DNA from: Lachnospiraceae bacterium
GTDB taxonomy: Bacteria > Bacillota > Clostridia > Lachnospirales > Lachnospiraceae
Direction of reading: 5' to 3'
Assembly (NCBI GenBank): GCA_016286035.1
Contig: JAEERY010000072.1
Span: 1-64,000 of the forward strand
Length of the DNA: 64,000 nt
Below the pieces are notes generated by a model. It worked only from the letters and a program-made list of their open reading frames with translations, searched no databases and was not told where the DNA came from. Of this stretch, positions 1-25,735 are shown piece after piece (position 1 is the stretch's first letter; every line of letters starts with the position of its first letter). A program made the position numbers and the translations under genes.

Positions 1-18
1 AGTCTGGCTGTTGTACAT
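1..18 (-). CDS. Spacer mini-ORF, partial (runs off left edge)
   Basis: Directly downstream of tRNA-Lys(CUU) the minus strand carries GGAGG (27-31), an 8-nt spacer and an ATG at 18-16. The visible codons read Met-Tyr-Asn-Ser-Gln-Thr before the window ends. It repeats the SD-ATG arrangement of the other array spacers and implies that the array continues to the left. No function can be assigned from six codons. Confidence 0.45.
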
Positions 19-33
19 TTTTATATCCTCCAA

Positions 34-106
34 TGCCTGCAGTGGGGTTCGAACCCACGACCTTCGGTTTAAGAGACCGCTACTCTACCAACTGAGTTAC
101 GCAGAC
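34..106 (-). tRNA. tRNA-Lys (anticodon CUU)
   Basis: A cloverleaf can be folded: the seven acceptor pairs include G-U pairs, the anticodon loop is CTCTTAA with anticodon CTT, and the T-loop is TTCGAAC with a GTGGG/CCCAC stem. The discriminator is A and no CCA is encoded, so a CCA-adding enzyme is required. It reads AAG and is the last complete tRNA of the array in transcription order, 4 nt after tRNA-Lys(UUU). Confidence 0.93.
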
Positions 107-110
107 GCAG

Positions 111-182
111 TGCGCCTGACAGGATTCGAACCTGCGATATACGGGTTAAAAGCCCGGTGCCATACCGCTTGGCTACAGACGC
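111..182 (-). tRNA. tRNA-Lys (anticodon UUU)
   Basis: The anticodon loop CTTTTAA gives anticodon TTT, the T-loop is TTCGAAT, and the acceptor GCGTCTG pairs with CAGGCGC. The D-arm resembles that of tRNA-Gln or tRNA-Glu more than a usual bacterial tRNA-Lys, so the Lys identity rests on the anticodon. No CCA is encoded. Its positions 8-10 (TAG) supply the stop codon of the upstream Lys-rich mini-ORF. Confidence 0.9.
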
Positions 183-223
183 ATTTGATCATATTTTATT
201 AATAGCTTTTGTTTTCGTTTCAT
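173..223 (-). CDS. Lys-rich spacer mini-ORF upstream of the tRNA-Lys pair (16 aa)
   Basis: GGAG lies 7 nt before an ATG, and the frame encodes MKRKQKLLIKYDQMRL. Four of the sixteen codons are Lys (AAA, AAA, AAG, AAA), covering both codons read by the two tRNA-Lys genes immediately downstream. The stop codon TAG is formed by nucleotides 8-10 of tRNA-Lys(UUU), so a terminating ribosome would sit on the tRNA 5' end. That translation tunes release or folding of the tRNA is inference; expression has not been shown. Confidence 0.5.
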   Translation of the reverse strand: MKRKQKLLIKYDQMRL

Positions 224-241
224 TTTTATTCTCCAAATAAA

Positions 242-327
242 TGCGCTCAACAGGGATCGAACCTGCATGTCATCCTTAAGACACCGGACTCTCATTCCGG
301 CCTGTATTCCAGTTCCAGCATGAGCGC
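242..327 (-). tRNA. tRNA-Leu (anticodon GAG)
   Basis: A type II tRNA of 86 nt with a long variable arm. The anticodon stem CCGGA/TCCGG holds the loop ATGAGAG with anticodon GAG, and acceptor GCGCTCA pairs fully with TGAGCGC. Discriminator A, no CCA. It is the last of four consecutive Leu tRNAs. Confidence 0.92.
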
Positions 328-330
328 TTA

Positions 331-411
331 TACGGGTGACAAGATTCGAACTTGCAAGCTTATGCCACCAGGGTTTGAGTCTGGCTCCTGTACCGATTCG
401 GACACACCCGC
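331..411 (-). tRNA. tRNA-Leu (anticodon CAA)
   Basis: The anticodon loop is CTCAAAC with anticodon CAA. The anticodon stem has an A-C mismatch next to the loop (31-39). T-arm GCAAG/CTTGT carries the loop TTCGAAT. The acceptor starts with a G1-U72 wobble. It is 81 nt long, discriminator A, no CCA. Confidence 0.87.
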
Positions 412-414
412 CTA

Positions 415-495
415 TGGGCGTGAAGGGAGTCGAACCCTTATGCATATAGCCACGGTTTCTAAGACCGCTATGTATACCGGTTCCATCACACGCCC
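415..495 (-). tRNA. tRNA-Leu (anticodon UAG)
   Basis: The loop CTTAGAA gives anticodon TAG inside a CGGT/ACCG stem. T-loop TTCGACT, acceptor GGGCGTG with CACGCCC, discriminator A, no CCA. Third position wobble would let it read CUA and CUG. It lies 3 nt from each neighbouring Leu tRNA. Confidence 0.92.
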
Positions 496-498
496 GTA

Positions 499-582
499 TA
501 GCGCAGATGAGAATCGAACTCACATGATAAGACTATCCCGGGATTTTAAGACCCGTGCGTATACCATTTCCGCCACTGCGCC
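499..582 (-). tRNA. tRNA-Leu (anticodon UAA)
   Basis: The loop CTTAAAA gives anticodon TAA. It has a long variable arm, T-loop TTCGATT, and an acceptor that begins with a G1-U72 wobble. Discriminator A, no CCA. It is the first of the Leu quartet in transcription order, and the upstream Leu-rich mini-ORF runs straight through it. Confidence 0.91.
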
Positions 583-636
583 ACAGATATTAAGTTTAAG
601 GCTGCAATGTCGCAGCAATCGTAATGATAACAGCAT
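520..636 (-). CDS. Leu-rich spacer mini-ORF upstream of four tRNA-Leu genes
   Basis: AAAGGA lies 8 nt before an ATG at 636. The first 18 codons, before the tRNA starts, contain seven Leu codons (CTG, TTA, TTA, TTG, CTG, CTT, CTT). Together these need all four Leu anticodons encoded immediately downstream. The frame continues through tRNA-Leu(UAA) to a TGA at 522-520, giving 38 codons. A ribosome on this ORF would unfold the tRNA. The leader-like composition is visible; a regulatory role is inference. Confidence 0.45.
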   Translation of the reverse strand: MLLSLRLLRHCSLKLNICGAVAEMVYARVLKSRDSLIM

Positions 637-727
637 GATCTTTTTCCTTTCTCATATCATTTGTTAACAGCAGGAACAGATTATACGGACTGAAAGTCAT
701 TGTTGTGTGTTCCGTTCTGTCCTGCAA

Positions 728-798
728 AGCTTTCTGACGGACTCGAACCATCATACCTTGATTACAAATCAAGAGTCCTGCCATTGGACGAAGAAAGC
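728..798 (-). tRNA. tRNA-Thr (anticodon UGU)
   Basis: Acceptor GCTTTCT pairs with AGAAAGC, the anticodon loop is TTTGTAA with anticodon TGT in a CTTGA/TCAAG stem, and the T-loop is TTCGAGT. The discriminator is T and no CCA is encoded. At 71 nt it is compact. Confidence 0.91.
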
Positions 799-807
799 AT
801 TGATAAA

Positions 808-880
808 TAGGACGGGTGAGAATCGAACTCACGACACACGGCTTATAAGGCCGCCGCTCTCACCCCTGAGCTACCGCCCC
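808..880 (-). tRNA. tRNA-Ile (anticodon UAU, reads AUA)
   Basis: The anticodon loop CTTATAA gives anticodon TAT in a GCGGC/GCCGT stem, and the T-arm is GTGAG-TTCGATT-CTCAC. Most bacteria read AUA with a CAU tRNA modified to lysidine by TilS, so a genuine UAU isoacceptor is uncommon. Positions 8-10 (TAG) end the upstream mini-ORF. Discriminator A, no CCA. Confidence 0.88.
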
Positions 881-918
881 ATATAAATATGGTTTGGTAT
901 TCGTATTTTCTTTTTCAT
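871..918 (-). CDS. Ile(AUA)-containing spacer mini-ORF upstream of tRNA-Ile(UAU) (15 aa)
   Basis: GAGGA lies 7 nt before an ATG at 918, and the frame reads MKKKIRIPNHIYMGR. It has three Ile codons, two of them the rare AUA that the next tRNA decodes. The stop TAG is nucleotides 8-10 of tRNA-Ile(UAU). The arrangement matches the Lys mini-ORF. Short length makes coding status uncertain. Confidence 0.45.
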   Translation of the reverse strand: MKKKIRIPNHIYMGR

Positions 919-945
919 TTTCTTATCCTCTTATATCATATTTAA

Positions 946-1018
946 AGTGATCGACGAGCAACGATCTCGCAACCTCCTGCTTGGAAGGCAGGTATTCTGC
1001 CAATTGAACTACGATCAC
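946..1018 (-). tRNA. tRNA-Gly (anticodon UCC), aberrant T-loop
   Basis: Acceptor GTGATCG pairs perfectly with CGATCAC and the stem CCTGC/GCAGG holds the loop CTTCCAA with anticodon TCC. The T-loop reads ATCGTTG instead of the usual TTCRANY, so U54 and A58 are missing although the T-stem pairs. Discriminator T, no CCA. It may be a degenerate or specialised tRNA. Confidence 0.72.
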
Positions 1019-1053
1019 ATAGTGGAACACCGAAAGTGCCTGTTTTCCGGCAT
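1015..1053 (-). CDS. Spacer mini-ORF upstream of tRNA-Gly (12 aa)
   Basis: An ATG at 1053 is preceded by AAGG (7 nt away) and encodes MPENRHFRCSTM, ending with TGA inside the first nucleotides of tRNA-Gly. It has no Gly codon, so it does not follow the cognate-codon trend. The ATG sits in a small GGCAT/ATGCC hairpin. Lowest support among the minus-strand mini-ORFs. Confidence 0.28.
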   Translation of the reverse strand: MPENRHFRCSTM

Positions 1054-1084
1054 TCCTATGCCTTTTTTGGTGTTTTCACACCTA

Positions 1085-1158
1085 TCACCCGTGCCGGGAT
1101 CGAACCGTGCATTTCCAGCTTGAAGGGCTGATTACCTATCCTGTTAGTAGAACGGGCG
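1085..1158 (-). tRNA. Probable tRNA-Glu (anticodon UUC), aberrant
   Basis: Acceptor CGCCCGT pairs with ACGGGTG. The best five-pair anticodon stem, TCAGC/GCTGG, encloses CCTTCAA, giving anticodon TTC but with C rather than the near-universal U at position 33. The T-stem has mismatches. Identity as Glu is therefore provisional; it could be a decayed copy. A second Glu tRNA (CUC) lies downstream. Confidence 0.6.
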
Positions 1159-1164
1159 CTAAAA

Positions 1165-1238
1165 TGTGACCGATCGGATTCGAACCGACGACCTTCGGAT
1201 CCACAATCCGACGCATTGACCAGCTATGCTACAGCCAC
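1165..1238 (-). tRNA. tRNA-His (anticodon GUG), lacking G-1/C73
   Basis: The loop TTGTGGA gives anticodon GTG in a TCGGA/TCCGA stem, and the D-arm and T-arm look like ordinary bacterial tRNA-His. The nucleotide before position 1 is T and the discriminator is A, whereas bacterial tRNA-His normally has an encoded G-1 paired with C73, the main HisRS determinant. Confidence 0.88.
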
Positions 1239-1240
1239 AG

Positions 1241-1312
1241 TACCCGATGTAGGAGTTGAACCTACCTTTGCGGGTTGAGAACCTGCTGACCTTTCCGATA
1301 GTCGAATCGGGC
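1241..1312 (-). tRNA. tRNA-Glu (anticodon CUC)
   Basis: The loop TTCTCAA gives anticodon CTC; the stem GCAGG/CCCGC has one A-C mismatch. T-arm GTAGG-TTCAACT-CCTAC. Acceptor GCCCGAT pairs with ATCGGGT through a G1-U72 wobble. Discriminator A, no CCA. It reads GAG. Confidence 0.86.
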
Positions 1313-1316
1313 AAAA

Positions 1317-1389
1317 TAGCGGATACGGGATTTGAACCCGTGTCTTTAGGGTATGAACCTAACAAGGAAAACCGCTCCTCCAATCCGCA
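1317..1389 (-). tRNA. tRNA-Met-like (anticodon CAU) with open 1-72 position
   Basis: The loop TTCATAC gives anticodon CAT in a TTAGG/CCTAA stem, and the T-arm is ACGGG-TTCAAAT-CCCGT. Aligning the acceptor (TGCGGAT with ATCCGCT) leaves a U1-U72 mismatch, which recalls initiator tRNA, but the anticodon stem lacks the three G-C pairs of initiators. It could be elongator Met, initiator-like Met, or a CAU tRNA for Ile. Confidence 0.83.
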
Positions 1390-1390
1390 G

Positions 1391-1463
1391 TTGAGATGAC
1401 CGGACTTGAACCGACACATTCCTGATCCCAAATCAGGAGGGCTACCAATTACCCAACATCTCA
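1391..1463 (-). tRNA. tRNA-Pro (anticodon UGG)
   Basis: The loop TTTGGGA gives anticodon TGG in a CTGA/TCAG stem; the acceptor TGAGATG/CATCTCA is fully paired; T-loop TTCAAGT. Discriminator A, no CCA. Confidence 0.9.
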
Positions 1464-1472
1464 ATATATGTG

Positions 1473-1545
1473 TACCAACAGAGAGTCTCGAACTCCCAAC
1501 TTCTTCCTTGTAAAGGAAGCACTCTCCCAATTGAGTTATGTCGGC
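1473..1545 (-). tRNA. tRNA-Val (anticodon UAC)
   Basis: The stem CTTCC/GGAAG holds TTTACAA with anticodon TAC. The acceptor GCCGACA/TGTTGGT includes G-U pairs and the T-loop is TTCGAGA. Discriminator A, then CA rather than CCA. Confidence 0.91.
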
Positions 1546-1549
1546 TTAA

Positions 1550-1573
1550 TGGCAGTTATAAGGCTAACTGCCA
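1550..1573. repeat. Perfect inverted repeat in the Ala-Val spacer
   Basis: TGGCAGTTA (1550-1558) and TAACTGCCA (1565-1573) form a 9-bp hairpin with a 6-nt loop just upstream of tRNA-Val in transcription order. No T-run follows on the minus strand, so it is not an obvious terminator. This spacer is the only long one without a convincing SD-ATG mini-ORF. A processing or structural role is possible. Confidence 0.6.
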
Positions 1574-1631
1574 AACCATGCTTTTTTTGTTTTCCGGTAA
1601 GCACTACCTTAAGCTATACTACGTATACGCG

Positions 1632-1704
1632 TGGACCACATGGGAATCGAACCCACCATCTCAAGTTTGCAAAACTCGCGTCACCCCATTGCGACCTCTG
1701 GCCC
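1632..1704 (-). tRNA. tRNA-Ala (anticodon UGC)
   Basis: The stem CGAGT/ACTTG holds TTTGCAA with anticodon TGC, and the T-arm is GTGGG-TTCGATT-CCCAT. The acceptor pairs except for a G7-G66 mismatch. The G3-U70 wobble that marks tRNA-Ala for AlaRS is present. Discriminator A, no CCA. Confidence 0.9.
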
Positions 1705-1737
1705 ATATATGGCTGTCTGATTAATGACGGTTGACAT
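1681..1737 (-). CDS. Spacer mini-ORF upstream of tRNA-Ala (18 aa)
   Basis: GAGG lies 9 nt before an ATG at 1737. The frame MSTVINQTAIYGPEVAMG runs into tRNA-Ala and stops with TGA in its D-region. It has one Ala codon before the tRNA and one within it, so cognate enrichment is weak. It shares the SD-ATG-overlap layout of the other spacers. Confidence 0.35.
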   Translation of the reverse strand: MSTVINQTAIYGPEVAMG

Positions 1738-1767
1738 TTGATGCTACCTCGTCAGGATAGCAACCAA

Positions 1768-1841
1768 CGACTCAGGCGAGATTTGAACTCGCGACCTCCG
1801 CCTTGACAGGGCGGTATTCTGACCAACTGAACTACTAAGCC
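1768..1841 (-). tRNA. tRNA-Asp (anticodon GUC)
   Basis: The stem CCGCC/GGCGG holds CTGTCAA with anticodon GTC. T-arm GCGAG-TTCAAAT-CTCGC; discriminator G, the normal AspRS determinant. No CCA. It follows tRNA-Tyr by 4 nt. Confidence 0.93.
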
Positions 1842-1845
1842 ATGA

Positions 1846-1928
1846 TCCCTCTTGTAGGAATCGAACCTACCAGACCCACAGGTACCGGATTTACAGTCCG
1901 GTCATTCTCCATAAATGGCTAAAGAGGG
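1846..1928 (-). tRNA. tRNA-Tyr (anticodon GUA) with C1-G72
   Basis: A type II tRNA with a long variable arm, anticodon loop CTGTAAA (anticodon GTA) and T-arm GTAGG-TTCGATT-CCTAC. The acceptor CCCTCTT/AAGAGGG is perfectly paired and begins with C1-G72. Bacterial tRNA-Tyr normally has G1-C72, while C1-G72 is typical of archaea and eukaryotes. Discriminator A, no CCA. Confidence 0.92.
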
Positions 1929-1958
1929 TTAATCTGTGTTTTCACAATATTCATACAT
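1929..1958 (-). CDS. Tyr/Asp-containing spacer mini-ORF upstream of tRNA-Tyr and tRNA-Asp (9 aa)
   Basis: AAAGGAG lies 9 nt before an ATG at 1958, encoding MYEYCENTD. The TAA stop abuts the first nucleotide of tRNA-Tyr. Two Tyr codons and one Asp codon in nine match the two tRNAs immediately downstream. The SD is among the strongest in the array. Confidence 0.45.
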   Translation of the reverse strand: MYEYCENTD

Positions 1959-1991
1959 GTAACATCACTCCTTTATCTATCATATTTTAAG

Positions 1992-2064
1992 TGGACGGTA
2001 CTGGTGTCGGACCAGTCCCTCCAGATCTTCAGTCTGGCGCTTCCACCGGGTTAGCTTACCGTCC
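1992..2064 (-). tRNA. tRNA-Phe (anticodon GAA), C55 variant
   Basis: The acceptor GGACGGT/ACCGTCC is fully paired and the stem CCAGA/TCTGG holds CTGAAGA with anticodon GAA. The T-loop is TCCGACA, with C in place of the near-universal U55 that becomes pseudouridine. Discriminator A, no CCA. Confidence 0.87.
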
Positions 2065-2092
2065 GTTTTGACGGTAAAAATCGTATCTTCAT
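2051..2092 (-). CDS. Spacer mini-ORF upstream of tRNA-Phe (13 aa)
   Basis: GAGG lies 8 nt before an ATG at 2092, encoding MKIRFLPSKRTVS. It stops with a TAA formed by tRNA-Phe nucleotides 12-14. It has one Phe codon. The preceding part of the spacer can form a GCGATAA/TTATCGC hairpin. Coding status uncertain. Confidence 0.38.
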   Translation of the reverse strand: MKIRFLPSKRTVS

Positions 2093-2164
2093 TACAATTT
2101 CCTCTTTGTTTTTTGAATTTTGTTTGCGATAAACAGGTGCCTGGTCTGATTATCGCTATATAAG

Positions 2165-2236
2165 CGGAAACGATAGGGCTCGAACCTACAACCTCCCGGT
2201 TAACAGCCGGGCGCTCTGCCATTGAGCTACGGATCC
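2165..2236 (-). tRNA. tRNA-Asn (anticodon GUU), first gene of the array
   Basis: The stem CCCGG/CCGGG holds CTGTTAA with anticodon GTT; the T-arm is GTAGG-TTCGAGC-CCTAT. The acceptor GGATCCG against CGTTTCC has two internal mismatches (4-69 and 5-68), so it is less stable than usual. Discriminator G, no CCA. It is the first tRNA after the attenuator. Confidence 0.83.
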
Positions 2237-2251
2237 ATATATTTTTGCATT

Positions 2252-2286
2252 AAAAAATCGCCTGTTGGATGTTTCCACAGACGATT
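2252..2286 (-). terminator. Leader terminator hairpin upstream of the tRNA array
   Basis: On the minus-strand RNA, AAUCGUCUGU (2286-2277) pairs with ACAGGCGAUU (2265-2256) over ten pairs including one U-G. The stem can extend by GGA/UCC with a bulged A around an AACA loop. A run of six U follows. It ends 16 nt before tRNA-Asn, and its left arm shares seven nucleotides with the competing upstream stem. Confidence 0.72.
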
Positions 2287-2336
2287 GCCAAAAAAGTGAT
2301 CAATTCATTTAATATCACTCTAACATCGCAATCGTC
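2280..2336 (-). promoter_or_regulatory. Candidate antiterminator stem of the tRNA-array leader
   Basis: GACGAUUGC (2336-2328) and GCAAUCGUC (2288-2280) form a perfect 9-bp stem. It encloses a weak GUGAU/AUCAC hairpin followed by U6. Because 2280-2286 is also needed by the terminator, the two structures exclude each other. The left arm lies in codons 51-54 of the leader ORF, 6-14 nt before its stop, where a terminating ribosome would cover it. This is the geometry of classical translation-coupled attenuation; the mechanism is inference. Confidence 0.62.
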
Positions 2337-2487
2337 CCCTGTATTCTTCATAAGAATCGTATTTTGTTGCAGAAATGGGCGCGCATATCAGCACACTGAG
2401 GATCTCATTTGAGCGCACAAAACTAAACATATCCCATGTATATGTTTTATGCTGTCTATTGAGATTGTTTAATACTGCCTGCAACAT
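2320..2487 (-). CDS. Leader peptide of the tRNA array (55 aa, all 20 amino acids)
   Basis: AAAGGAG lies 5 nt before an ATG at 2487, and 55 codons run to a TAG at 2322-2320. The peptide begins MLQAVLNNLN and uses all twenty amino acids with 36 different codons, among them AUA, CCC, GCG, AGG, CGA, GGA and four different Leu codons. It has no signal peptide or known domain. It sits between the array promoter and the overlapping hairpins and ends inside the antiterminator region. I infer that it samples global charging or tRNA supply: fast passage favours termination, a stall favours array transcription. A 55-residue peptide could contain all twenty by chance, so context carries most of the weight. 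Confidence 0.68.
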   Translation of the reverse strand: MLQAVLNNLNRQHKTYTWDMFSFVRSNEILSVLICAPISATKYDSYEEYRGRLRC

Positions 2488-2529
2488 AACTGCTCCTTTA
2501 AGATTTCATGTCATTGATTAAATACTAAT

Positions 2530-2583
2530 AAAAAAGTGCCTTCAATCATTTTTGGATACCAAAAATAATCGAACAGGCACTTT
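2530..2583 (-). ncRNA. 5' terminator-like hairpin of the tRNA-array transcript
   Basis: About 4 nt after the predicted start site, AAAGTGCC (2583-2576) pairs with GGCACTTT (2540-2533). An inner ATTTTTGG/CCAAAAAT stem has a 3-nt loop, and six U follow (2535-2530). The result would be a roughly 57-nt hairpin RNA if termination occurs, or a structured 5' cap on the tRNA precursor if it does not. No matching known family was recognised. Confidence 0.55.
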
Positions 2584-2593
2584 CGATGGTTTA

Positions 2594-2622
2594 ACTATAC
2601 ATCACCTCCAAACACTTGTCAA
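2594..2622 (-). promoter_or_regulatory. Consensus sigma-A promoter for the tRNA array
   Basis: On the minus strand TTGACA (2622-2617) and TATAGT (2599-2594) are separated by exactly 17 bp, with an A/T-rich stretch upstream of -35 that could act as an UP element. Transcription should start near 2587 and run through the hairpin, leader ORF and tRNAs. Confidence 0.85.
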
Positions 2623-2748
2623 CATATTTTTTAAAAAAATTTGAAAAGATTCAAATGTATCAACATATGCTATTATGTAATAAAGCAAAAAAAGTCGAGA
2701 ATTATCCATTATAAAAAAGCTAATATATGCTCACAAGGAGTTAAGCCG

Positions 2749-3624
2749 ATGGATGAACAGAAAGCAGCAGTCAGATCAATGCAGGATTATATAAACGAGC
2801 ATCTTCACGAAGATATCTCAATTATGGACCTTGCTAAAGCATCCGCATTTTCACCGGATCACGCAAGGAGATTATTTGAGAAACATCTGAATATGACTCC
2901 GTCAGTTTATATAAGGCGCCTCAAACTGTCAAAATCCGCATTGAAGTTAAGAGATGAAAAAATCTCTGTTCTTGATGTCGCAATGGATATGGGATTTGGA
3001 AGTGTGGATGGTTATCAGAGAGCATTCAGAAGAGAATTCGGCTGTAACCCGAAAGAATACTCATCAAGTCCTGTACCGGTATGGCTTTTTACTCCTTCAC
3101 TTATCATAAGTAAAGAAAGGAAAGTGAGCAACATGAGTGAGATCAGAAACATTTTTATACAGGTCATAGAAAGGCCTGAAAGAAAAGTTATTATTAAGCG
3201 TGGTATAAAAGCCGATGAATACTTCAGTTATTGCAATGAAGTAGGATGTGATGTATGGGGACTTCTTACCAGTATCAAGTCTATAAGCGGTGAGCCGGTA
3301 TGTCTGTGGCTGCCTAAACATTTAAGAAAACCTGTAACAAATGAATATGTACAGGGTGTGGAGGTTGAACCAGATTACTCCGGTCCCGTTCCCGAAGGCT
3401 TTGAGATTATCGATCTTCCTGCAACAAAATATCTCCTGTTCAGAGGAGAACCTTTCGCACAGGAGGATTACGAATCTGCAATCTCAGAAATCTGGGAAGC
3501 GGAGAAGAAGTATGATCCTGCATTTATAGGTTATGCGTGGGATGCTCAAAATCCCAGGATCCAGCTTGAACCAAAAGGCGAGAGAGGTTATATAGAATTA
3601 GTACCCGTTAAAGAAGTAAATTAA
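2749..3624 (+). CDS. AraC-family transcriptional regulator with GyrI-like effector domain
   Basis: This 291-residue protein has two AraC-type helix-turn-helix motifs in the first 105 residues (DISIMDLAKASAFSPDHARR and GFGSVDGYQRAFRREFG) followed by a domain resembling the GyrI/Rob-type small-molecule binding fold (about 130-290, FIQVIERPERKVI onward). Such proteins activate or repress genes in response to hydrophobic compounds. I chose the ATG at 2749 because AAGGAG lies 9 nt upstream; a longer frame would overlap the tRNA promoter region. It is divergent from the tRNA array, so a regulatory link is possible but unsupported. A hairpin terminator follows. Confidence 0.88.
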   Translation: MDEQKAAVRSMQDYINEHLHEDISIMDLAKASAFSPDHARRLFEKHLNMTPSVYIRRLKLSKSALKLRDEKISVLDVAMDMGFGSVDGYQRAFRREFGCNPKEYSSSPVPVWLFTPSLIISKERKVSNMSEIRNIFIQVIERPERKVIIKRGIKADEYFSYCNEVGCDVWGLLTSIKSISGEPVCLWLPKHLRKPVTNEYVQGVEVEPDYSGPVPEGFEIIDLPATKYLLFRGEPFAQEDYESAISEIWEAEKKYDPAFIGYAWDAQNPRIQLEPKGERGYIELVPVKEVN

Positions 3625-25237: not shown

Positions 25238-25645
25238 TTACTTTTGTCCGTCCTTTAAATGGATATGACGAATAGTTCGATGTCTGATGACAGAGATATA
25301 TGTATCGCTGCTCCATATCTCAAAAATACGGATAAACAGATACATATATATCATGAAAAGAATTAATGCACTGTATAAATATCTGGTTTTCAGAGGTTGT
25401 TGCACTCTTTCTGATGATCTTATTGTCGATATAACATCTCTTACAAGACCAAAGGCAGTATCCCTGGATAAAGAATATGATTCAAAAGGTAACTTTTGCT
25501 CACATACATTTTCACTTGTCGCGCTTGCCTTATACATAAAGGTACAATTCTCCGCGAGTGAAGAAAAATGCTCCACACCCGACATGGTGACCATGAGAAT
25601 TGCCATCAACAATATAAGGTTACAAATGTTTTTCCTTACCTTCAT
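25238..25645 (-). CDS. Hypothetical membrane protein (135 aa)
   Basis: Residues 1-30 look like a signal peptide or anchor (NLILLMAILMVTMSGVEHFS) and about 90-110 form a second helix (LYSALILFMIYMYLFIRIFE). No clear SD precedes the ATG. A terminator follows. I do not recognise a family. Confidence 0.55.
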   Translation of the reverse strand: MKVRKNICNLILLMAILMVTMSGVEHFSSLAENCTFMYKASATSENVCEQKLPFESYSLSRDTAFGLVRDVISTIRSSERVQQPLKTRYLYSALILFMIYMYLFIRIFEIWSSDTYISVIRHRTIRHIHLKDGQK

Positions 25646-25735
25646 AGTGACTGAATAATATCACAATCATGCTTTATACTCAAGCATTTATATCATTTAA
25701 TATCAAACGCATTTTTTGTATATTATGAGATAACA

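Follow-up and report, generated by a model that had tools for sequence, protein, structure and literature searches.

At the left end of the 64,000-nucleotide (nt) stretch analysed here (the window; positions 1 to 64,000 of contig JAEERY010000072.1 of a Lachnospiraceae bacterium, assembly GCA_016286035.1), the minus strand carries a long array of transfer RNA (tRNA) genes that is probably a backup tRNA operon controlled by ribosome-mediated attenuation. A shortage of the tRNAs that decode a leader open reading frame (ORF) would turn on the spare set, and short ORFs within the spacers (mini-ORFs) would tune individual tRNA blocks. Three elements that such control involves are directly visible: a promoter, a leader ORF that contains codons for all 20 amino acids and ends on a strand here called A, and two mutually exclusive pairings that precede the first tRNA gene. 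The array reads as one operon, whose 5' part consists of the promoter, a hairpin followed by a T-run, the 55-codon leader ORF, the two-state attenuator and 20 tRNA genes (two of them degenerate), and whose 3' part consists of a gene for an RNaseH_like protein, a Y-RNA-like stretch, a gene for a protein of 680 amino acids (aa), a second leader ORF with a terminator, and nine tRNA genes.

A sequence-only reading of positions 1-2236 had drawn attention to mini-ORFs led by Shine-Dalgarno (SD) motifs in the tRNA spacers, several of them enriched in codons of the tRNAs that follow. These mini-ORFs are present on the minus strand, and the codon counts given for them (four Lys of 16 codons, seven Leu of 18, three Ile including two AUA, two Tyr and one Asp of nine, and one Phe) are correct; the most striking leader, with its 20 amino acids, lies just outside that span. 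The SD motif and ATG at the left edge belong to no mini-ORF, the start codon at 18-16 being that of the RNaseH_like gene (PF04308), which continues on contig C34.

A redundant set of tRNA genes

The left edge of the window is the end of contig C91 of a genome of 3.02 Mb in 95 contigs, and the array continues at the end of contig C34 (locus L034), the overlap between the two contigs being identical over 112 bases. ARAGORN detects 18 minus-strand tRNAs at 34-2236 of the window and one more elsewhere, and the whole array contains 27 ARAGORN tRNAs plus two degenerate genes, Ala and Glu(UUC), which that program misses; the resulting total of about 29, in tRNA blocks of about 3.6 kb, serves all 20 amino acids. 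The second block, on C34, encodes nine tRNAs (Ser, Gln, Gln, Arg, Ile, Arg, Ser, Trp and Cys). Of the 63 tRNA matches of the genome, 28 belong to the array, where the overlap of the contigs makes one count twice, and 35 lie elsewhere; because of these 35 further matches the array can be taken as a second, spare set. It thus has the makings of a long redundant tRNA operon, with many tRNAs beside a housekeeping set, and is predicted to form one transcription unit. The coverage, codon and permutation tests below include in their tRNA lists degenerate Ala, Glu, Asn and Ser genes called by eye.

Searching 20 genomes from the genus and 397 from the family led to related arrays. The array of the window genome is designated G000, and its relatives G008A, G008B, G009, a part in G012, and G375, which belongs to another genus; a decayed array, G060, was found through the pattern of the hairpin T1 described below. 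Four of their sources are named in the genome_contigs collection, all of them Lachnospiraceae from the rumen or from culture: RGIG8044 (with two arrays), XBB2008, RGIG10209 and RUI286.

The head leader and its probable attenuator

The promoter matches the sigma-70 consensus at 11 of 12 positions, and G008A, G008B, G009 and G375 have TTGACA and a -10-like hexamer at the corresponding position; the count of promoter-like sites in the region as a whole is not above that of shuffled sequences (6 vs 5.6). Directly downstream lies T1, a long hairpin whose 5' arm (CGAAAGTGCCTGTTCGATTATTTTTG) is invariant across six arrays. A 25-base T1 pattern occurs in five stretches of genome_contigs and in none of viral_contigs, in only the window's own genome among 392 of the order, and in two of the seven genomes of the genus of G375.

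In G000, G008A, G008B and G009 the head leader ORF that follows uses all 20 amino acids, and in G375 and G060 all except Trp; for a random 55-aa gene segment the probability of containing all 20 is 0.0215, and of containing at least 19 it is 0.14. According to ARAGORN, the G375 array has no Trp tRNA, a match to its Trp-less leader that is suggestive only, because Leu, Gly and Asp tRNAs are also undetected there and their codons are present in the leader. When each array's tRNAs are compared with the codons of its own head, coverage is 27/29 in G000 (P=0.0075), 27/28 in G008A (P=0.0032) and 20/20 in G375 (P=0.0001). Between the heads of G000 and G009, 32 codon changes are nonsynonymous and five synonymous, with amino-acid composition kept; a conserved, functional leader peptide, also considered, was ruled out by this free divergence of the peptides.

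Strand A lies directly before the stop codon in five of six heads. Its partner, strand B, may pair either with A or with strand C, in the latter case forming T2, a terminator hairpin with a T-run located upstream of the first tRNA gene. Over six arrays, A:B pairs are possible in 58 of 60 cells and B:C pairs in 54 of 54, and the B:C pairing exceeds its shuffled control (0/500 shuffles as high). In all six arrays A:B folds at -20.7 to -25.0 before C has been made, and the B:C region folds at -16.2 to -24.6 when A is masked. A mutually exclusive antiterminator and intrinsic terminator of this kind were recognised at the head leader only; an SD-led leader ORF upstream of tRNA genes is found in 6/6 heads and in the 5/5 second leaders seen.

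T-box control was also considered as a candidate and was ruled out by the lack of an Rfam match, none being found up to E=1 in window positions 1-2760 nor up to E=0.5 in L035, L036, L038, L073 and L039.

The leader of the second block

Ser, Arg, Gln, Ile, Cys and Trp codons abound in the second leader ORF, which has a terminator behind it, and the last block encodes exactly the tRNAs for these amino acids. Its cognate codons number 17/38, 19/39, 20/32 and 21/30 in four arrays, the last two being levels unreached in 100,000 gene segments. Taken alone, it stands out strongly against gene segments in all four arrays and against nucleotide shuffles in three of four, and by simple wobble rules it serves 9/9, 9/9, 9/9 and 7/7 of the anticodons of its block. 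The terminator is seen in four of five arrays, the fifth, G060, being decayed. The cognate match extends, with support, beyond the span first read, to both this block and the head leader.

Mini-ORFs within the first block

An ORF was counted as qualifying if it had an SD motif of at least four bases, an ATG 20-60 nt before the tRNA and at least seven codons, in spacers of at least 40 nt. By this definition SD-led ORFs are present in 22 of 39 spacers of six arrays, as opposed to three of 90 spacers from tRNA loci outside the arrays, in the same genus and family (Fisher P=2e-11, a value that ignores the relatedness of the arrays); since the arrays are related, neither the 39 spacers nor the counts over arrays are independent.

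The permutation test called for at first reading places the true assignment of ORFs to tRNAs at or near the top. In its first form one amino-acid set was fixed per ORF family and the G000 Asp/Ala ORF was cut at nine of its 18 codons, and in a repeat each array's actual tRNA blocks were used. The true assignment ranks 3/5040 in G000, 2/720 in G008A, 1/120 in G009, 1/6 in G375, and 1/720 in G008B (2/720 with the actual blocks); at the level of ORF families it ranks 1/5040 raw and 2/5040 after column normalisation.

Tested individually, the Leu leader is strong both by shuffle (P 0.0002-0.0045) and against gene segments in four arrays, the Lys leader is above gene segments in six arrays, and the Tyr leader is significant by shuffle in two of three, which is suggestive. 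Codons of the Leu leader serve all four Leu tRNAs in G000, likewise in G008A, and all five in G008B, with two of four left unserved in G009; both AAA and AAG are present in each of the five Lys leaders examined. The comparison of homologous arrays that had been proposed bears out the prediction, SD, ATG and cognate content being kept while other codons drift: Leu leaders read MLLSLRLLR.., MLLRLVLPLLRGLNEL.. and MLLLQLRKKTS, and Tyr leaders MYEYCENTD, METDYYYIKE and MDHYQYKAK... The latter occur at two different places in the tRNA order, tRNA-Tyr following Phe in G000 and lying between Leu and Lys in G008A, G008B and G009; at the latter place it has its own leader in G008B and in G009.

The mini-ORFs also share features of form. 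Their stops lie mostly within about 22 nt of the first base of the tRNA, the exceptions being the Leu ORFs of G000 and G008A (+64), the G009 ORF of Asp/Ala type (+87) and the Phe ORF of G375 (-29), and no terminator was seen between an internal mini-ORF and its tRNA, either in the sequence or in the window terminator scan. In the long ORFs of these loci the codon CGA is rare (3.8% of 1017 Arg codons), and in 28 mini-ORFs it accounts for 25 of 44 Arg codons (12 of 24 in 13 representatives). There it usually stands right ahead of the cognate codons, and it may act as a brake.

Certain spacers contain hairpins. The Gly spacer, which had been counted among the SD-led ones, holds mainly a conserved hairpin and a weak SD. 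In five arrays, two spacer hairpins per array have an invariant CAGGCAC loop on different stems, and this motif is complementary to GTGCCTG in the invariant T1 5' arm just after the promoter; a kissing interaction or a trans-acting RNA is possible. A merged consensus fold of these hairpins has no pairs because the two hairpin types were aligned together; folded singly, the hairpins are seen. Another hairpin, with a CYGACGA loop, carries the SD of the MSTVI.. ORF in all four arrays that have that ORF.

Proposed mechanism and its alternatives

Under ribosome-mediated attenuation, a head leader whose codons are all decoded promptly would bring the leading ribosome to the leader end, where it would cover A, so that B:C would form and transcription would stop. 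If a tRNA were scarce (cleaved, uncharged, or with translation poisoned), the ribosome would lag upstream, A:B would form, and the array would be transcribed. The second leader and its terminator would gate the last tRNA block, and the terminator-less internal mini-ORFs (Leu, Lys and Tyr, and weakly Ile and Phe) may tune local output. On a well-decoded mini-ORF the ribosome would run through and park on the tRNA 5' end, hindering folding or RNase P cleavage, and a ribosome stalled at scarce cognate codons would stay clear of that end. Such occlusion of the tRNA 5' end is our preferred, tentative mode of action for the mini-ORFs.

A number of observations weigh against this attenuation scheme. 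At the head, A:B covariation is not above shuffles (107/500), the ORF frame of G008B extends beyond strand A, coverage of the array's own tRNAs is at chance in G009 (18/21, P=0.36) and marginal in G008B (27/30, P=0.076), and the window terminator scan gives no excess over shuffles (2 vs 2.0), with T2 not among its calls. At the second leader, the G000 ORF reaches only P=0.068 by nucleotide shuffle, and no antiterminator partner of the terminator was found in four arrays (duplex P 0.28, 0.49, 0.80 and 0.98). Among the internal mini-ORFs, the cognate match claimed at first reading holds for Leu, Lys and Tyr, and the Phe, Ile and Asp/Ala leaders do not exceed chance when taken singly: the Phe leader is significant in one of five arrays, by shuffle only, the Ile and Asp/Ala leaders are enriched in no array, the Lys leader itself reaches P<0.05 by nucleotide shuffle in only one of six, and the G008B Asp ORF has 0/10 cognate codons for its actual block. 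The tRNA-Tyr of G008A has no Tyr leader, and the Val, Pro and Gly spacers of G008B have no qualifying ORF. Finally, differences between G000 and G008A number 23, 17 and 34 by codon position, and because this third-position bias is only mild, coding is not shown by the substitution pattern.

An extended version of the scheme, which we hold to be possible but unlikely, is a closed loop that replaces nuclease-destroyed tRNAs. The mini-ORF of every block would be codon-matched, and ribosome progress on it would set the maturation of exactly those tRNAs through 5'-end occlusion; the universal 20-amino-acid leader would gate the whole set; and the CAGGCAC spacer hairpins, once freed by processing, would pair with the T1 5' arm and feed back on initiation of the array, whose use would be to replace tRNAs destroyed by anticodon nucleases. 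If true, this would represent a new type of control, translation-gated tRNA maturation.

It is rather doubtful that regulation is confined to the two leaders with a terminator. The mini-ORFs inside the block would then be relics, or ribosome landing sites that shield the long untranslated spacers from Rho or RNases, and their cognate content, inherited from ancestral attenuators, would not be read. The missing terminators, the lack of individual enrichment for Phe, Ile and Asp/Ala and the spacers without an ORF would all fit; yet the Leu and Tyr leaders have diverged almost fully and have kept their matched codons, Tyr leader and Tyr tRNA are found together at two places in the order, and the Lys leader is kept even in the phage contigs L095 and L096. 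Also doubtful, in our estimation, is a role of the leaders as sensors of antibiotics or of translation stress at large, and not of individual tRNAs, in the manner of toiL or the stress-induced Anabaena trn operon. A leader with 20 amino acids would be a suitable general sensor, and induction of tRNA operons by translation inhibitors is known (PMC10272220), but the match of the second and internal leaders to their own blocks would be left unexplained.

Two further explanations are very improbable. The mini-ORFs could be drop-off minigenes that trap cognate tRNAs as peptidyl-tRNA and lower the free pool until enough has been made, as their shortness, SD motifs and cognate codons near the start might suggest; most, however, have 8-19 codons, longer than the lambda bar minigenes of this type, which have two or three, and the head and second leaders are accompanied by attenuators. 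Chance, whereby AT-rich spacers would yield SD-like motifs, ATGs and Lys, Leu, Ile or Tyr codons in a pattern repeated by the shared ancestry of these homologous arrays, agrees with Lys and Ile contents near the nucleotide-shuffle mean in most arrays, and is contradicted by the scarcity of qualifying ORFs in control spacers from related genomes, the permutation ranks within single arrays, the Leu shuffle values and the two second leaders unmatched by any gene segment.

Protein genes, related loci and phage context

The array of the window genome has, between its tRNA blocks, only the RNaseH_like gene (PF04308) and the 680-aa gene (L034 6702-8744) among the genes of 80 or more aa listed there. 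The latter has no Pfam match, and relatives in nine of 397 family genomes, its own included; none of its relatives comes from viral_contigs, and they yielded no additional arrays, ARAGORN finding no tRNA in the eight stretches fetched. Its predicted structure (predicted local distance difference test, pLDDT, 72.6; predicted template modelling score, pTM, 0.54) has no PDB match at E<=0.001, and weak fold matches to a TROVE domain (9kop; E 0.026, probability 0.96) and to human Ro60 (E 0.34). Between the two genes, YrlA-like matches occur in G000, G008A and G009 (L034 8856-8993, L035 6316-6415 and L038 683-794, respectively), all below the gathering score, the one on C34 being partial (42.7 bits vs 69). 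An RtcB RNA ligase (PF01139) is encoded between the tRNA blocks of G008B (L036 6360-7553), and of four other loci with the 680-aa gene whose genes were listed, three (L097, L098 and L099, from three other genera) have RtcB nearby, L102 being the exception. RtcB, the YrlA-like matches and the weak TROVE match would place the operon near tRNA damage and repair.

The relatives differ in what they retain. G008A has all parts of the operon plan, the RNaseH_like and 680-aa genes were not seen between the blocks of G008B, as far as examined, the contig end of G009 falls inside the 680-aa gene, and no protein gene of either kind lies within the 417-base gap of G375. G060 keeps the head and a remnant of the second leader, ARAGORN finding no tRNA in the 9 kb fetched. 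A transfer-messenger RNA (tmRNA) gene lies upstream of the G008B array (L036 12094-12495), and in the same array a 631-nt gap before tRNA-Asn holds, after a degenerate tRNA, an ORF that by eye only is homing endonuclease-like. tRNA-like genes with an enlarged or interrupted body are found at about 6099-6202 of L073 (Asn, G375) and at 3100-3220 of L039 (G012).

In rumen phage contigs, the RNaseH_like gene is located inside big tRNA arrays, and two of them, L095 and L096, keep a Lys mini-ORF (MKRKS..) before tRNA-Lys. Over the phage contigs with the gene, six of 74 spacers have a qualifying ORF, of which only the two Lys ones are matched. The rumen phage contigs L095, L096, L107, L108 and L109 have 18-31 ARAGORN tRNAs each, and in their long spacers structured pieces that resemble tRNAs, and are not called by ARAGORN, occur repeatedly. 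In L111, from the 735-kb uncultured phage LR756501, two tRNAs with CTA anticodons (25503-25660; Pyl according to ARAGORN, suppressor-like) lie near a distant RNaseH_like homologue. From the repair-gene context and the phage arrays with the RNaseH_like gene and Lys mini-ORF, replacement of cleaved tRNAs is drawn as the likely use of the array.

Table 1. Elements of the putative tRNA operon within the window, listed in the direction of transcription.
Feature	Position	Strand	Basis or remark
Sigma-70 type promoter TTGACA-N17-TATAGT	2594..2622	-	sequence scan
T1, long hairpin then T-run, directly downstream of promoter	2530..2589	-	fold, comparison
Head leader ORF, 55 codons, SD AAGGAG, all 20 amino acids	2320..2487	-	sequence
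Attenuator strand A (GGACGATTGC), within last codons of head ORF	2328..2337	-	folds
T2, terminator hairpin (strands B and C) with T-run, upstream of tRNA-Asn	2252..2286	-	folds
tRNA-Asn(GUU), first tRNA of the operon	2164..2236	-	ARAGORN
Hairpin with CAGGCAC in loop	2126..2156	-	single-sequence folds
Phe mini-ORF (MKIRFLPSKR..; MKIRFLPSKRTVS, then stop)	2051..2092	-	sequence
tRNA-Phe(GAA)	1991..2064	-	ARAGORN
Tyr/Asp mini-ORF (MYEYCENTD, then stop abutting tRNA-Tyr)	1929..1958	-	sequence
tRNA-Tyr(GUA), tRNA-Asp(GUC)	1767..1928	-	ARAGORN
Hairpin with CYGACGA loop holding SD of next ORF	1743..1761	-	stem varies between arrays
Asp/Ala-type mini-ORF (MSTVINQTA..), upstream of Ala gene	1681..1737	-	cognate content not significant
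Degenerate tRNA-Ala(UGC)	about 1632..1704	-	by eye; ARAGORN calls Ala at homologous place in G008A, G009
tRNA-Val, Pro, Met, Glu(CUC), His	1164..1545	-	ARAGORN
Degenerate tRNA-Glu(UUC)	about 1085..1160	-	by eye; ARAGORN calls Glu(UUC) at homologous place in G008A
Hairpin with loop CAGGCAC, upstream of tRNA-Gly	1024..1056	-	single-sequence folds
tRNA-Gly(UCC)	946..1018	-	ARAGORN
Ile mini-ORF (MKKKIRIPNHIYM..; MKKKIRIPNHIYMGR, then stop), two AUA codons, ahead of tRNA-Ile(UAU)	871..918	-	sequence
tRNA-Ile(UAU), tRNA-Thr(UGU)	728..881	-	ARAGORN
Leu mini-ORF (MLLSLRLLRHCSLKLNIC..), extends into tRNA-Leu(UAA); 18 codons upstream of tRNA (584-636)	520..636	-	sequence
Four tRNA-Leu: UAA, UAG, CAA, GAG	242..583	-	ARAGORN
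Lys mini-ORF (MKRKQKLLIKYDQMRL, then stop)	173..223	-	sequence
tRNA-Lys(UUU), tRNA-Lys(CUU)	34..182	-	ARAGORN
RNaseH_like gene start (PF04308), rest on contig C34 (L034)	1..18	-	profile match

Relation to known systems

Leader-peptide attenuation is known for amino-acid and antibiotic genes, and in the trp, his, leu and ilv operons it is ribosome-mediated, relying on regulatory codons and mutually exclusive hairpins. The array shares with these operons an SD-led leader with regulatory codons, whose end lies over strand A, and a terminator before the genes. It differs from the trp/his type in that control would act not on an amino-acid enzyme but on the very tRNA by which the leader is decoded, in that the head leader draws on the full set of 20 amino acids, and in that additional leaders lie inside the operon. 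Because the regulated product is itself what decodes the leader, the sensor would measure its own product. We infer that the attenuation logic of known leader peptides is here applied to tRNA genes; no tRNA operon under leader-peptide control was among the papers listed in searches of one library of mainly open literature. The proposed reading offers a direct answer to how many spare tRNA genes could be held in reserve, in a cell or a phage, and brought into use one block at a time only on shortage of particular tRNAs; with it the purpose of large tRNA arrays, a long-open question, becomes directly testable.

Among tRNA operons, the trn operon of Anabaena PCC 7120, with 26 tRNAs and a repressor, TrcR, is likewise long and redundant; according to PMC10272220 it is normally silent and induced by translation-targeting antibiotics. 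Unlike the array, it is controlled by a repressor at the promoter, and the words 'leader' and 'attenuation' are absent from the main text of that paper. The tRNA array units of mycobacteria, Firmicutes and phages resemble the array in their many tRNAs arranged in tRNA blocks and in their relatives in phage contigs, and the opening parts of the abstracts of PMC5966550 and PMC6409571 mention no leader ORFs. Phage tRNAs are described in the abstract of PMC10264068 as countering host anticodon nucleases, which parallels the replacement of cleaved tRNAs as likely use of the array and its relatives in phage contigs; leader control, by which the array would differ, does not figure in that abstract. 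The E. coli upstream ORF toiL, which senses several ribosome antibiotics and many kinds of stall (PMC12121999), controls translation of a protein gene with Rho, unlike the array with its hairpins before tRNA genes. Finally, an RNA repair operon activated by damaged tRNAs is reported in PMC7790460, and the array has in common with such rsr-yrl-rtcBA operons the RtcB of G008B, the sub-threshold YrlA-like RNA and the weak TROVE match of the 680-aa protein; it differs from them in that it would make replacement tRNAs, and in that its predicted sensors are ribosomes on leader ORFs.

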